64,000 nt of DNA from Fistulifera solaris (lineage: Eukaryota; Bacillariophyta; Bacillariophyceae; Naviculales; Stauroneidaceae): assembly GCA_030295235.1 (NCBI GenBank), contig AP026172.1, forward strand, positions 124,001-188,000. The letters run 5' to 3'. The translations under genes were made by a program, and so were the position numbers. Below, one piece after another: positions 5,698-14,592 of the stretch (position 1 is the stretch's first letter; each line of letters begins with the position of its first letter). Below the pieces are notes generated by a model. It was not told where the DNA came from and searched no databases. It saw only the letters and a program-made list of their open reading frames with translations.

Positions 5698-6416
5698 TTG
5701 ATTTCGACCTGAACATGGCAAAGCAGCGGTAGTATCAAATGTAATAAGTCGGTTAGTCTATACTCAAGTACCTTTTTATACGTCCTCTTCGATCTTATGT
5801 GCTTTGTGCTGATGAAATGTTTGCTTACATCTTGTCACATCGCAGTCGGTGCGACTTGAAACGATATCTCTAAGGAGGGCAAGTGACGCACGCTAAAGAT
5901 GCTGCGTGTGGATCGAAGATACCAGTACTAGTCTTTAAGTAAAATTAATCGTTACATAGTCACACCCGTCCTAGTCACACAATCATACTTTGTTAGTAAA
6001 GTGTACTTGTACTTTTTTTGTGTTGTGTCGGCCAATGAATGGGCGGTGCGATGAACAGACGACAAACGGCGCGGCAAGCAAGCAAGTAAGCGCTGCCTCA
6101 CGCTCACCGCTCACGCCTCTCACAACTCACAACATACACAGCCTTTCTTTCCTCTTGTAACGATCTGCTGGTTGTTGTTGCGGTAGTAATTTTCACTTCT
6201 TTCTGCCGCGCATTCTCGTCGTTACTTCAGAACACAAGTTAGAAAGGTCCTGGCCACGATCCTTTGCTGAACTCATGTTTTGAAGTGTAAAGCGCTGTTA
6301 GAAGTTCGAAAAACAAGAAATCATCGCCGCTGTGCCGTTCCTTATTTACTGTGCATTTGATAGCGAAAAACAAATCAATACGCCGTATCTCTCTTTCCAA
6401 GCGGTGTGTTTGAAGA
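5698..6416. other. Intergenic region
   Basis: There is no convincing open frame. The stretch 6060-6140 is rich in CTCAC/CAAGCAAG repeats, and the last 200 bases are a typical AT-richer leader before LSM12. I see nothing that can be named. Confidence 0.6.
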
Positions 6417-7103
6417 ATGGCTACAACTAACGGCGCTAAGAATGCGGCAACTCCGTCAACAGCTCGCTTGGAAGCACGCTACCCCGTGAACACCTCGTGG
6501 GAGTTTGTGCTACAGTCGCAGGAGACAGTAGAGGGAATTATCTATTGCACCGATGACATGTCACAAACCGTCGTTCTGCAGACGGCACTATCTCATACTG
6601 TCCTAGCGTCGGAAATCAGATTGATTCACGCGGCGCATATTGTTCGAGCCACGCAGCAAAGACGGAAGACGCCACGGAAGGCATTCCGTTGTCGGCTCCG
6701 TTACCCAAAATTCAGAAGAAGGTACTCGAGGAACGAGAAAAAAAAGCGCTCAAAAGTGCAGAGGAGAGTCTTCGGCACATTAATGAAAAGGTGTGTGGGA
6801 ATGATTGCTGGTCTACGTCGTCGTTCCCTGCTGCAACACAATGCTCACTCTCTTTTCTCTATTTGTTATCCAAATCAGACTACTCCCAAAGGCCAAATTG
6901 TGTTTGATAAGCTGCTAAAAGCGTGCAGTGAAGCTGTTTGGAAAGGCGAATCCATCTTGGTACTCGGTCAAGTGCAAGTAGATCCACCGTACGGTCCGGA
7001 ACATTGCAAAATCTTGCAGAAAAATGCCTCGGGCAAGAAATCCTTGGACGACGGTAGCTTGGAACGCATTCAGAAGATTGTTGCCGCAGTCTCTTTATCA
7101 TGA
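6417..7103 (+). CDS. LSM12: LSM12 homologue (LSm domain plus AD domain)
   Basis: The corrected product is about 199 residues, close to human LSM12. Residues about 20-80 form an LSm fold (WEFVLQSQETVEGIIYCTDD, then SEIRLIHAAHI). A basic helix with EEREKKALKSAEESLRHINEK leads into the C-terminal AD domain (TPKGQIVFDKLLKAC, VQVDPPYGPEHCK, ERIQKIVAAV). An intron at 6791-6878 joins INEK to TTPKGQ in phase. Before it, the frame must gain one base at the AAA run 6658-6660; with it the sequence reads ATQQKTEDATEGIPLSAPL, so I take this as an assembly deletion. LSM12 proteins bind RNA and ataxin-2 and act in mRNA or tRNA metabolism; no more specific role can be read here. Confidence 0.85.
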   Translation: MATTNGAKNAATPSTARLEARYPVNTSWEFVLQSQETVEGIIYCTDDMSQTVVLQTALSHTVLASEIRLIHAAHIVRATQQRRKTPRKAFRCRLRYPKFRRRYSRNEKKKRSKVQRRVFGTLMKRCVGMIAGLRRRSLLQHNAHSLFSICYPNQTTPKGQIVFDKLLKACSEAVWKGESILVLGQVQVDPPYGPEHCKILQKNASGKKSLDDGSLERIQKIVAAVSLS

Positions 7104-7209: not shown

Positions 7210-8249
7210 TCAGTGCGACAGAGCTGCTGCCTGCATTCGACTATAGTGCTCCGTACTGGTCAGCTGTTCAATCAGCACAGCATCGGAAGCGACCCAGGAC
7301 TGGTGATTTTTAGCGTCGTTGTCGTCGAGATGATTGGATATCTCGATTTCTCGGGGCGACAAATCAATATTCAATATTGTCAAACTCGAGTTGGGAATGG
7401 AGAGTGCGGGAACACCATTCTTGTTTTCAAAGCGTGCGTCGGGATGTTGTCGCAGTCTTTGCGTGCCCAGCAATCGTTCCAAAAAGATGCGCAACAAACC
7501 AGAATGCGAGATTACCAATACGTTAAGTACTTTGTCACCATCATTTGGGGTATCTTTGCTATCGTTGTCGCTATTATCCGGCACTACGTACCCACTCTCT
7601 TGCGCAGCATCTTCCATGACTTCGTCCAACCAGTCCGATACTCGACTCCATCCTTCCCCGGGTGTCTCGAACAGTGGAATCGGATCCATGATCCCCAAAC
7701 GCTCGCGTTCCGAAAAGGCTTCCATTTCCGACAATACTTTGGGTAAGCCTTCCCGAGCACCACGAGCCAGTTCTCGTAATCGCGGCTTGAAACGAACCGG
7801 TAGTATAGGAGAGTGTTTGTCGATAATCAATTGCGCTGTGTGCTGGGCTCGTGGAAGATCGGAGGAATAGATTCGCCAAAACGAACGATTACTTTCAGCG
7901 AGTTGCTCGCCCAGCGCTTTCGCTTGCTCCACGCCTTTGACTGTGAGTGGCTGTAATCATCCATAAAAGAAGAAATTAGCAGTTTATGTGCGAGCTGTAG
8001 ACACGTTGATTCATCAAACGCACCGAATCCGATTGCCCAATGACAATTTTTTTGAACGTTCGATTCCGTTTCTCCATGACGGATCAGATACAAGCGAAGA
8101 GATAAGCGACGTTGGGTTTGTTGCTTTTGCGGTTGAGACGTTGACAGATGCGGAACGGCATCGGATGACATTATAGCATAAAGGCCGATAAGTAAGAATA
8201 GCTTACAAGTCGCCCAATTCCGACGAAAAGGCACTCTTTCGACTTGCAT
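7210..8249 (-). CDS. Histidine phosphatase (phosphoglycerate mutase-like), membrane-anchored or secreted
   Basis: The corrected product is about 321 residues. The family signature YLIRHGETESNVQK carries the catalytic His. Further signs are the SDLPRAQHTAQ helix, the GEGWSRVSDWL segment and the second catalytic His in LVISHSGLLRI. An intron at 7951-8023 joins IGQSDS to PLTVKGVEQAKAL, the family's usual order. This join works only if the T7 run at 8047-8053 is really six bases, so I read one inserted base. The N-terminus has a hydrophobic stretch (KLFLLIGLYAIM, about residues 16-27), suggesting a signal anchor or organelle targeting. The substrate cannot be told from the sequence; fructose bisphosphatase-like and phosphoglycerate mutase-like enzymes share these motifs. 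Confidence 0.82.
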
Positions 8250-8761: not shown

Positions 8762-11700
8762 GTGATTGTAATGCGAGCCAAAGCCAAAAACCTTGTTTAT
8801 GTAGTTTTGAATCCGCAAAAGGGTGGACCATTCCCTTTTAAACTGGGCAACATGGTTCGAATTTGCTTAGAAGATGAGACTTTCGATGATTCACTCCTCA
8901 ACAATGCCGAGTGGAATGTCTTGGAGACACCCAAACGGCGCAACGTCATACGTGAGCACACCCATCTTCATGAAAAGGAAGAAATAGCCGACGATGAACC
9001 TCTTCATCCTTTGGGATTTTCTTCACCCTCCTCGCAGGATCGAACGCGTTATTCTATGGAGGAAGAAGACGAAGAATCCTTGTTACGGTACAAACTGCAA
9101 TGGGGATATTTAAATGTCCGCAAGAATCAGCATCACCAGGATAAAACCACAGAGTGGATCACATCGAATGCGACGCAACATTATCCACCGTTGTATTCGT
9201 ATTTGGATGCCGAAACAGCTCCCACTTCGGCATTGTTGCGTTACGATTACCAGCAGAAACGTCATCAACAGGATTCTTCATCCGAAGATCCGATGGAGAA
9301 AATTACCATGTTATTGAAAGCATCCTGTGTGATTGTAGATGAAACTACTTTGTTATCACCAATTCGAGAAATTGAATCGATTCAGCAACAAATGATTCTA
9401 CCGCAACATGTACAGCAGCAGCGGGATTCTAAGATTCAACAACGCGTGGAACGCTATCGAGCCAAATTTGCGCGCGAGCAAGAAGAAGCGGCCCAGGCAT
9501 TAGCAAGTCTCTTGCAGCGTCAAGAAGCCAAAGCTCTGGAGATAGAGGAAGAACAGAAGCGATCGCAAGAGGAACAAGAGCGACAACAGCAAGCAGAAGA
9601 AAACGAAAAAAGGATTCAGGAAGCAAAACTGCACGAGCAAAAAGAGGAACAAGCCAGGGCAGCCAAGGAAGCGGCCAAGCAACAGGAAGAGCGACAAAGA
9701 GAAGCTTTGATGCAGAAAAGTCAAGAACCCGAGTACATTGGACGCGCTAAGAAACTTGTAGCCGAATTGGTACAGGTACGAGCATCTGTAGAGTCATTTG
9801 AAACATCCAAGGCAGTCAGCAAGCGGCGACTGGGTGTAAAGAAAGTTGCAAATGGAAAGGTCAATACGTTGACCGAAGATGCAGGCAAGGTTCGCAGTGT
9901 GGCTGCCGAAGTATCACAAGCTATTTCTGTATCAAGGGCCGAAGATGCAGAAGCAAAGCAAAGACTAGAGGCACAGGACCCGTCCGTCTCTGTTGAAATG
10001 ACTCGAGGCAAGCGCTACTTCTTGGACTTTTTATGCAGTAAAGCCATTGTTCGTGCACAGGCAGATGGATTCAATGGGTAAGTAGACACAGAATAATGCG
10101 AAACGGTCGAGTTTGTTTTGTAACTAAATTTATTTTAACAGACAACGCGGGGACGGGTTTCCATTGGCTTGTATGCTAACGCTTGTATCCGTCGACAACA
10201 AAGACATCAATCCGATTCTGGCAGCCCATATCTACACTGTATGTCCCGTGGCCATTCCGACACTTCCATCACCCGCAAAAGATGCTTCCGAAGATGAATT
10301 CATGGAAAGCCTGGGGATGCTCAGGGAGAAGAATGGAGAATTCGAGACGTTTGAAAAGTTTCTTTCACGGACAGAGGTAAGTTGCAAGAATACAAACATT
10401 GTTGTTCGTTAAATCAACGCTCTGACATTGATATTTACAGGGCATTATATCACTTATGGCAAACATAATGTCAGTGCAGCCATCAACGCATACGTTGATG
10501 GGTGGGAATGAAGGAGCAGTGAAATGGCTGTCTCGATTTTTAAAGTTACTCCCCGAAGCGCCAACTGCACCTCTCCCACTTTTAACAGCCCCCGTTCTTG
10601 ATGCATTCTTATCAGGCGCTGGTCATATGCTGGCAAACGTCCACGGGGAACGGTTCCGACAGTATCTTGACCTTATCTCAAATGATATTTTAAGTCGACT
10701 AGATGTTGGACCGATCGGAAAACCATCATCGATACGTTTGAAAAAAGACGATTGAAGGAGGATTTGAGAAATTTAAATCAGAGCTACCATCCAAAGCAAT
10801 TGCAGAGCTCTACCTTGCTGGGAGATCTGCAAGTAGCCAAGCATCGCACATTCTTCCGACACTATCTGTTTCACAGAAACTTATGGGACATTCTCCTTCT
10901 CAGCGACAATCCTCATCTTCATCATGGGCTTCGCCTTTCGGACCAGCAAGTGGACGATCCTCGCAAAGCTCGAATACATTTGGAGGCACATCTAGTACCA
11001 GTAGCAGCAATAGAGCTTCGTTCGGCGGACTCGGCAGCAACCAATCTGCTTTTGGATCCTCGACGACTAGTGGTAACTTACAAAATTCATTTGGAGGCCA
11101 GAACAGCAGTAGTCAGACCAAGTCGCCTTTTGGATTAGTATCCAACACCAAGCAGAGCCCATTCGAAAGTTCCGCAAACACCAACAGCAATCAGTCACCA
11201 TTTAGAGCACCTAGTGCCCAGCCAACGTTCGTCAGCCCTTTCGGCGCGACTAGTGGTAATAACCAATCCCCTTTCGGCGCGGCTACAAATTCGTTCGGAA
11301 ATCACCTCTCGCAGCAAGAGTTCGGCATGGACGAGGATAGCGGAGGATCTGCACAACAATCAGGCGGAATGTTTGGAGGTTCCGCTTCTGCTGCTTCTCC
11401 TTTTGGTAGTTCCAGTTTAGCATTTGGCGCTTCCGCAAATGCTACACCTTTTGGTGAACCGAAAACTGCAAACTCTCCCTTCGGGAATTCTTTTGCTGGG
11501 TCATCGCCATTAGGTGGCACAACATCGGCCCCCTCCATGACGAACTTGAATTCGAAACCCTTTGGCCAGTCATCACCCTTTGGACAATCGAATTCATCTC
11601 CGTTCGGTTCTTCCGGACAATCTGGAGGCGTTTTTGGAGCTGGATCGACATCCTCAACGCCTTTTGGCTCTACTTCGTCATCAAATACCAATCCATTTGG

Positions 11701-11979
11701 AGCGCCTTCTCAATCTGGGCCTTTCAACAATGCTGGGCCATTTAACCGACCCATTCATCGTAAAAACAACAATGGAGGTAAATCTATTTGCAAATTTTTT
11801 GCCCAAGGACGGTGTCGATTTGGCGACAATTGCCGCTTTTCCCACGACACGGGAGGCGGCGGCGGGGAGGAGGCTTTGCTCCAAACAACAATCCTTTCGG
11901 CGGAGGTCAGTCGAATTTTTTTGGAAGTAGCAACAACTCTTTTCAAGCAAACATGCCGTTTGGCGGACCGCGTCGATAA
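8762..11979 (+). CDS. GLE1: GLE1 mRNA-export factor apparently fused to an FG-repeat/CCCH nucleoporin (NUP42-like)
   Basis: The corrected product is about 1,029 residues. Residues 1-220 are divergent. Residues about 220-330 form a Glu/Gln-rich coiled coil. The GLE1 C-terminal helical domain follows (RGKRYFLDFLCSKAIVRAQ, HIYTVCPVAIPTLP, GGNEGAVKWLSRFLKLLP, HGERFRQYLDLI). Introns at 10078-10141 and 10377-10440 (64 nt each) splice in phase. In the raw sequence the frame ends at 10755 right after the A6 run 10741-10746. With five A's it continues as LKKTIEGGFEKFKSELPSK into some 25 FG motifs (PFG, SAFG, SPFG; 10900-11750), then a CCCH finger (CKFFAQGRCRFGDNCRFSH; 11788-11845) and a GFG tail. A second slip at G4 11864-11867 must be repaired to reach the tail and stop at 11979. 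If the first slip is real, GLE1 and the FG protein (ATG 10883) are separate genes. Confidence 0.72.
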
Positions 11980-12060
11980 GTATCGTAATAACTGAAAGAT
12001 TACGGCTACATTACAAACTCTATTTTAAACTTTTAGCATGGTATTTAAACACCATTAACG

Positions 12061-14592
12061 CTAGGGCTCACGAACTGGTATAGGTGTAGCAAGCCCGGAT
12101 AGCTTTTTGAACTGCTGATTAGCTCCGTCGGGATTTTGGATTCCAATCACAGCCATTTTGATGGTCTTGCCGATGGCTTTACCCAATGAACGTTTCGAAA
12201 ATTCGAAAAATACGGGAACTTCTTCCTTCTGTGCAAGGTCCAATATTTCTTGTAGTTTCTCGTCTAATGCACCGTATTCGTCGAGATTGTTGGCCATGAC
12301 CACCATTCGTACCTTGCGTGCTCGAATTCCACGAGCCACCTCCCGCAATCCCATTACGAGACGTCGTTTTGCTTTGGCGTTCTTGTCCTCGGCGGCTCTT
12401 TTCTGTAAGCGCATCAGCTCGGCCAACATTTCCATCAATAGTGGCTTAACTGTCTCATTCTTGGAAAGAATCGCGTAGTGGCGAGGTTGTCCGGAGTTTG
12501 GTATTTTTGGGACACGCTTACACTCAGCAAATCGTTCAGGAATGCGCTTATCCCCCCGAAAACATGGGCTCAATTACGTCGTTGTTCTGGTTGTCATTGA
12601 GCTCCATCTCAGAATCATCTGATCCAGAAGCAGCCGTTACCGATACTGTCTGTCCACCAATTACCATTCCATGAAATCCTGTCAGGGCTTTTTGTTTCTC
12701 TTCCGCGGACGTGTAATGAACCCATATTGTCTGCTCTTCAATATTCGCATCGATTTTCTCCACTACTCCAAATTGTTTGGCCAATTCTTCAATATCTACC
12801 ATACTTTCCTCAAGACAGTCTTCGTCTTCCAAGTCTTCTGTCGTTAAAACGTTACGCAGTACTACTACAAAGTCGTCGCCGTGCAACGATGAAGGTGACT
12901 TATTGACCCGTAGAACCTTCGCCAACAACTGATTACCCGACAACTTTACTTGATTCAGTTGGACGACAATGCGCTTGACGTCAAGCAAATTACCTGTGTA
13001 TTCCAACACGACACGAGGTGGTGATTCCTCTTTTCAACGCGGAGTGTTGCCAAAGGCCCGTAACTTGTCGCCAGCACACGAATATCATTGACACATTCCT
13101 CCAAACATTCATCATCCTCCAAATCATCATCCGTCAACACATTCCATAACCCAATTTCGTGTGATGTATCGGTTTGCGTCAAAGATGCTTGCTTTTCTTG
13201 AAATGCGCGTTCGCACCCTATTCGCCAATCGTCCTCTGTTTCGGATAGCAATCTCGATGTGTCATCCGACGGCGATAATGCCATCACCTGCAATTCCGCC
13301 CCGCCCAAATTTAATCCATTCCAAGCATGCTGCGCTTCCTCCGCCGACTGCGCCGTTTGAAATTGCACATAGACCGGACTCTCTTCTCGCCGCGGTAACC
13401 ATGTACGCTGCACTGTCCCAATTTTCTCGGCCATTTCCTGAAAGTTCTGACACAATTCTTGGTACTCATCATCATCATTGCAATCATCGTCGGCGGTCAG
13501 CCATCCGAGAACAGCAAGTGTCGTAAAGGAGTCCTGTTCTGGTTGCAACTTGTCTGGATTCTTCTGCCGCCATTGCCGCAATCGTTCTTCCAACACTTTT
13601 TTTCTTTAACGGCGAAAATTTCTTCCGTCGTGGTCGTATCCGTTGCCGTCCTTTCTGCGTAACAACCATTTTTCCTTCTTGCATCAGACGCAATAACGCA
13701 TGTTCTTGGCCGAGTGGCAAGTCGTTGGTATTTGAATTTGTTGTATTCTTTCCATTCAGCGCAGTTTGGGTCAAGCTGGTAGTAGTAGTATGCCGTGTCT
13801 TTGGGTGGGGCGGTGGTATCGGGGCGCTGGTTGGCTTATTCTTTGCATCCGACGAAATTGCTTTGGCATTTGTTGATTTGTTGTTGCTATTGTTGTTCGT
13901 CAATGGCGGACCGACAAGTTTCGGAGCGGCAGTAGTAGTTGTCGTGGTGGATGGCAATTTGGAAGCGTAAAACGTTGGAGCCGACGCGTTCAACTTGGTG
14001 GTGGTGGCTGCTATAGGTTTTGTAATTACGGTCGGCTTTGTAGCACTATGACTCGTAGGAGCTTGTAGAGCTGGGAAATCGGTTGCTTTCAATGCACTAA
14101 ATGGTTTTATTACTGGTTTGACCAGCGATGATGATGATGGTGGTGGTTCGTTGAGTGATCGTTTTTGCTTCTTCTTGACATTCTTATCCGGAAGATTATT
14201 GCTGTTGTTGGTCTTGTTGTTGTGATTCGGATTTGTTTGCGGCTTTTGTTTCTTGTTATTCTTATTATTGATATTCGTTTGCTTCTTGTTGTTTGTGTTA
14301 TTATGAACAGCCTTTTTCGGATGTTGCGAAGTATTTGTAGCTTTGTCATTGTTGTTGTGCTTGCTTTCCTGTGTCGTTGTAGTATTACTATTACGAAGAA
14401 GAACCGGCTTTTGTATTCACGCATCGGAGCACTTGCGGCTACACGATCCCATCCACTTCCTTGCGCCCAGGCGTTCTTGTTGATGTTGTTAGAATTTGCC
14501 GCCGTAATGTTCGGTTGCGAATGGTGATAATTACTGGAGGACGGTGCTGCGGAATCTGAATTTGTCGGTAGATGCTGTTGTTGTGACATCAT
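12061..14592 (-). CDS. SECISBP2: SBP2-like SECIS-binding protein with three UHM/RRM-like domains and an L7Ae RNA-binding domain
   Basis: The corrected product is about 843 residues. The N-terminal 300 residues are Asn/Thr-rich and disordered, with KATDFPALQA. A basic segment (MVVTQKGRQRIRPRRKKF, LKKKVLEERLRQW) precedes three UHM/RRM-like domains (about 13480-13270, 13150-12960, 12870-12640); two share the pattern NVLT-DDLED-ECLEE. The C-terminus is an SBP2-type L7Ae domain (AKRRLVMGLREVARG, VPVFFEFSKRSLGKAI, MAVIGIQNPDGANQQFKKL). This domain binds the SECIS kink-turn and recruits the Sec-specific elongation factor. Four one-base slips break the raw frame: T4 14409-14412, T7 13597-13603, T4 13031-13034 and C6 12552-12557. 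Each repair restores conserved text. The start at 14592 follows an upstream region without family sequence. Confidence 0.75.

Follow-up and report, generated by a model that had tools for sequence, protein, structure and literature searches.

A GLE1 gene with an FG-repeat and CCCH zinc finger tail in the diatom Fistulifera solaris, interrupted by probable assembly errors

This analysis concerned a 64,000-nucleotide stretch of the genome of the diatom Fistulifera solaris (contig AP026172.1, positions 124,001 to 188,000; hereafter the window), in which a GLE1 coding region is followed directly by FG repeats and a CCCH finger, and the question it raises is whether these belong to one gene or to two. 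As printed, the GLE1 frame (frame 1 of the window) stops at 10753-10755, and the +1 frame after a run of six A's, an open reading frame at 10742-11995, encodes the FG repeats and the finger. Lin et al. 2018 (PMC5998080) describe Gle1 of humans and fungi as the activator of DDX19/Dbp5 at the cytoplasmic face, and Nup42 as a partner whose short motif stabilises Gle1 and anchors FG repeats beside it. The best explanation of the present locus, to which we give a probability of about 0.9, is a single gene, GLE1 with a built-in FG and CCCH tail, whose frame breaks, as printed, come from assembly errors.

Layout of the gene and its homeolog

A second GLE1 copy was found on contig C19 of the 51.7-Mb, 61-contig assembly. 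The alignment of the window with the C19 stretch comprised 47,809 columns, divided among 18 pieces of 78-91% identity, and such a pairing fits the presence of two subgenomes in F. solaris; several CCCH genes were also paired, on C1/C2, C3/C4, C5/C6 and C36/C37. Fistulifera solaris is allodiploid. At the junction, the GLE1 frame of the C19 copy stays open into the FG repeats, and its run of A's is five long instead of the window's six. The F. solaris protein FisN_6Hh409 (P0001), a single chain of 993 aa, is contained exactly in the C19 copy (993/993 residues, in six runs). The downstream frame over 10748-11850 has no stops in either homeolog, and the other two frames have 5 and 21 stops in the window and 2 and 19 in C19, a contrast greater than chance would give.

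Coordinates of the window copy are collected in Table 1. A first-pass annotation had placed the start at 8762, which is too early: the first Met of P0001 matches the ATG at 8852, and the upstream stretch is poorly conserved in the homeolog, with many indels between the two, so that ATG 8852 is the better start. The end given at the same time, 11979, is reached only past a second frame change that had been overlooked; left uncorrected, the printed FG frame continues into unrelated sequence as far as 11995. The 37 residues that lead up to the first Met of the FG part had been read as coding text; most of them belong to the closing segment of the GLE1 domain, and they are not a linker. The first frame break thus falls within GLE1's own domain. 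Both 64-nt introns have GTAAGT donors.

Searched alone, exon 2 scored 36.8 bits with PF07817, above the Pfam cut-off of 24, and exon 3 scored 18.2 bits, under the same cut-off; a PF07817 match is also precomputed for P0001. The finger of the window gene matched zf-CCCH_4 at 7.9e-12 (Pfam). In the predicted structure of P0001, residues 287-609 fold-align with residues 384-694 of human GLE1, matching the solved GLE1 C-terminal fold. The GLE1 domain and the finger are ordered in this model and nearly all of the sequence between them is disordered. The homeolog reading frame holds 23 FG dipeptides, one more than that of the window.

Table 1. Features of the GLE1-FG-CCCH gene in the window (positions of the 64,000-nucleotide stretch)
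Feature	Position	Strand	Basis
Exon 1: N-terminal region, coiled coil, start of GLE1 C-terminal domain	8852..10077	+	Start Met is P0001 N-terminus; GT donor at 10078; open frame; long helix in P0001 model
Intron 1, 64 nt, GT-AG	10078..10141	+	Sequence; spliced frame as in P0001
Exon 2: GLE1 domain	10142..10376	+	PF07817, 3.5e-9
Intron 2, 64 nt, GT-AG	10377..10440	+	Sequence; spliced frame as in P0001
Exon 3: GLE1 domain end, FG repeats, CCCH finger and short FG tail; printed with two one-base frame changes	10441..11979	+	C19 homeolog; P0001
A6 run, first frame change; A5 in homeolog	10741..10746	+	Homeolog alignment
GLE1 domain, last segment, in second frame (P0001 residues T584 to about 609)	10748..10825	+	Fold alignment; dN/dS 0.13 over 10748-10861
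FG-repeat region, predicted disordered	10886..11780	+	22 FG in open frame; pLDDT <50 nearly throughout in P0001; dN/dS 0.26 over 10862-11780
CCCH zinc finger CKFFAQGRCRFGDNCRFSH	11786..11848	+	Pfam; no amino-acid changes relative to homeolog; ordered in P0001 model
G-rich tract, second frame change, common to both homeologs, absent from P0001	11851..11873	+	Homeolog and P0001 comparison
FG tail, ends PFGGPRR and stop	11874..11979	+	Matches P0001 and consensus of 45 chosen fused relatives

Occurrence of the fused chain among diatoms

Three protein searches supplied 148 distinct clusters (all 103 of 103 hits, the best 120 of 174, and all 36 of 36, overlaps being counted once). Among these listed clusters, at least 128 have a single chain in which GLE1 is followed by five or more FG and these by a CCCH finger. 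Three more combine GLE1 and a CCCH finger with fewer FG between them (P0136, P0141 and P0145), most of the FG of P0145 coming after the finger, and 17 are without a CCCH finger. In 10 of these 17 the GLE1 match ends early, and they are taken for gene models cut short; another three carry FG repeats but end before the finger is complete or reached, P0032 and P0079 stopping inside one, which brings to 13 those that are apparently truncated. In the remaining four (P0009, P0023, P0039 and P0072) GLE1 is matched in full but an FG tail is absent, although another frame of P0039 could encode a finger. P0009, a diatom-like GLE1 of 850 aa encoded on a 539-kb contig, ends in unrelated sequence that has two FG and no CCCH finger; either its gene model is faulty or the tail has truly been lost. 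Clusters without a finger count against the best explanation.

Named members with the fusion include Epithemia, Seminavis, Nitzschia, Mayamaea, Cylindrotheca and Pseudo-nitzschia, as well as Cyclotella, Stephanodiscus, Thalassiosira, Skeletonema and Ditylum. Four proteins with transcriptome (MMETSP) names (P0011, P0037, P0042 and P0132) each have GLE1, FG repeats and finger, and the joined chain is therefore seen in RNA; P0068, also from MMETSP, ends before the finger. The first-pass annotation had pointed to other diatom GLE1 proteins as a check, and had named diatom homologues that are always two genes as the outcome that would speak against a fusion. Fused relatives proved instead to be the rule among the proteins found, in pennates and centrics both, and judged from these sequences the fusion is conserved across the two groups. 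Neither named non-diatoms nor named radial centrics occurred among the matches listed from the three protein searches, which depend on 5-residue words in common and on limits of length; in two of them, no more than about 8,000 candidates were scored per search.

The number of fingers varies. Two CCCH fingers follow GLE1 in 64 of the 131 listed clusters with GLE1 and a finger (P0005, P0015, P0043 and P0083, for example), the first of them standing soon after GLE1 in some of these proteins and shortly before the last in others.

Frame breaks and the alternatives to a single gene

The claim that the slip in the A6 run is a sequencing or assembly error is well supported: the C19 copy reads through with A5, P0001 is one chain, and the assembly is rich in frame breaks. 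Comparison of the window with C19 gave 36 indels whose length is not a multiple of three and which are flanked on each side by at least 45 ungapped bases; many of these frame-breaking indels lie in runs of one base. By thresholds of our own setting, 13 of the 36 have coding-like changes in their flanks and a frame kept in one copy only, six breaking the window and seven C19; a looser version of the count gives 15. The C19 GLE1 copy itself has frame changes at residues 204/205 and 258/259 of P0001, each through a missing base (window positions 9480 and 9639), and a third at residues 956/957, in the G tract. P0001 shows none of the three and is otherwise identical. Since breaks occur in both copies and those of the C19 GLE1 are missing from P0001, they are a property of the assembly. 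Further one-base breaks were seen in the window at 6657, 13030, 24256, 39249 and 51021, in coding stretches that are intact in C19.

The second break of the window gene, in the G-rich tract, differs from the first in that both homeologs are one base short relative to P0001. A systematic error of sequencing or assembly seems to be the cause, and because the break is present in both homeologs only P0001 and the conserved tail argue for an error here. P0001 and the consensus drawn from 45 chosen fused relatives both end in PFGGPRR, and a PRR terminus is found in 29 of these 45 and in 73 of the 128 fused clusters among the matches listed.

Comparison of the homeologs gave a dN/dS of 0.098 (about 0.10) before the first break (99 codons), 0.13 just after it (38 codons, 10748-10861) and 0.263 in the FG part (306 codons, 10862-11780). 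The ratio was zero in the finger (25 codons), with no changes at 59 nonsynonymous sites, and 0.61 in the short tail, where 35 codons hold only about 8 changes. The weaker constraint in the FG part and the tail is as expected for disordered FG sequence, although the ratio of the tail counts against the best explanation. On these ratios selection carries on across the first break.

It could be supposed that the sixth A is real and that the window holds a decaying homeolog of the fused gene, with the C19 copy the working one. The A6 break is indeed confined to the window copy, but the constraint just described extends past it, although part of this may predate a recent break, and the assembly breaks the two homeologs in six and seven places, including the three C19 GLE1 breaks that P0001 lacks; decay is accordingly an improbable explanation. 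Even less can be said for two genes, one for a GLE1 that stops at 10755 and one for an FG/CCCH protein that begins with the Met at 10883. Such a pair would take the frames exactly as printed, but it would leave GLE1 without the last part of its conserved domain, and the homeolog, P0001 and at least 128 of the 148 listed clusters have one chain. The frames could also be joined by a short intron, from GT 10705 to AG 10747, or by programmed frameshifting. A 43-nt intron has a length that gives the correct frame change, and A6 is the type of run on which ribosomes can slip, but the real introns here are of 64 nt with GTAAGT donors, the homeolog needs neither device, and the residues that the intron would remove are present in P0001, so that both are as implausible as two genes. 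With the homeolog in one frame, P0001 in one chain and these residues retained, two genes, the 43-nt intron and programmed slippage were all rejected. The fusion proposed by the first-pass annotation is thus real, on the evidence of the C19 frame, the P0001 chain and the fused diatom clusters.

Relation to NUP42 and to mRNA export

Compared with human GLE1 and yeast Gle1 (PF07817), the diatom chain is longer by about 380 residues, which comprise the FG repeats and the CCCH finger. It resembles the arrangement with NUP42, NUPL2 or yeast Nup42 (Rip1) in having FG repeats near GLE1 and, as in animals, a CCCH finger, and differs from all of these in that the tail shares the chain of GLE1 and is not bound to it through a C-terminal motif. 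Animal NUP42 has a CCCH finger at its N-terminus. The finger follows the FG region in the window gene and its homeolog, the reverse of the animal order, and at least five FG precede the last finger in 128 of the 131 listed clusters with GLE1 and a finger.

The description of the tail as NUP42-like is therefore fair for its presumed function but goes too far if homology is meant, given the order of the finger and a search for a GLE1-binding motif in which the P0001 model (a single chain, built on an alignment of 45 sequences) had no ordered segment after residue 616 except the finger. A PDB sequence search with the divergent relative P0136, taken to E values of 10, matched no Nup42 chain. The PDB is not known to contain more than short Nup42 pieces. 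These weak negatives, together with the finger order, would suit a diatom GLE1 that gained an FG stretch and a finger independently, its likeness to NUP42 being convergent and no NUP42 having been captured. On the other side, FG repeats, a CCCH finger and a GLE1 partner are exactly the NUP42 set, homology fades fast in disordered tails, and the Nup42 pieces in the PDB are short; independent gain is a serious possibility, at somewhat under even odds.

A separate gene with FG repeats and a finger was sought in the whole assembly, where CCCH fingers were located in at least 8 places by PF18044 and at least 21 by PF00642. About 3 kb around each of 28 CCCH loci (L012-L039, several overlapping) was checked for FG, and no second FG and CCCH gene was found, the other finger-bearing loci having at most two FG in the frame of the finger. 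The search covers finger-bearing genes; the Nup42 of yeast has no finger.

The GLE1-Nup42 partnership, which acts in the last step of mRNA export, may have become one obligatory polypeptide in diatoms, through a fusion at least as old as the common ancestor of pennates and Thalassiosira-like centrics. There would be no separate Nup42, the helicase activator would carry the FG site and the RNA finger in a fixed 1:1 ratio, and the motif by which Nup42 elsewhere joins the two would have been lost as unneeded. We put this history forward tentatively, at close to even odds. The joined FG repeats would keep the export receptor NXF1/Mex67 near the helicase activator, the disordered stretch between GLE1 domain and finger serving as a flexible tether on which export receptors dock, and the CCCH finger would contact mRNA. 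Such docking in cis is somewhat more likely than not. That diatom GLE1 would activate the helicase, that receptors and RNA would be bound as described and that the tail would replace Nup42 are what we infer for its function; no experiments on diatom GLE1 were found in the open-licence PMC literature, among the matches listed.

That two parts of the mRNA export gate are fused in nature lends independent support to a place for FG repeats right beside GLE1. With the anchoring built in, diatoms offer a ready test of the two roles, stabilisation of GLE1 and anchoring of FG repeats, that Lin et al. (PMC5998080) give to Nup42. Pore inventories that seek Nup42 as a separate gene could overlook its role in diatoms. 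The main text of PMC2951903 does not contain the word Nup42. The architecture is already visible in databases, where the same fusion appears as diatom 'mRNA export factor GLE1' (UniRef) and 'GLE1-like protein/CCCH-type zinc finger' (JGI); a paper describing a GLE1-FG-CCCH fusion was not found in the open-licence PMC literature, among the matches listed.

Three neighbouring genes in the window were assigned domains. An anticodon-binding (AD) domain (PF09793) is encoded at 6414-7103 on the plus strand, in a frame broken at 6657. The minus strand carries a member of the histidine phosphatase superfamily, branch 1 (PF00300), at 7213-7956 and an L7Ae/L30e RNA-binding domain (PF01248) at 12064-12573, next to an open reading frame that is broken at 13030.
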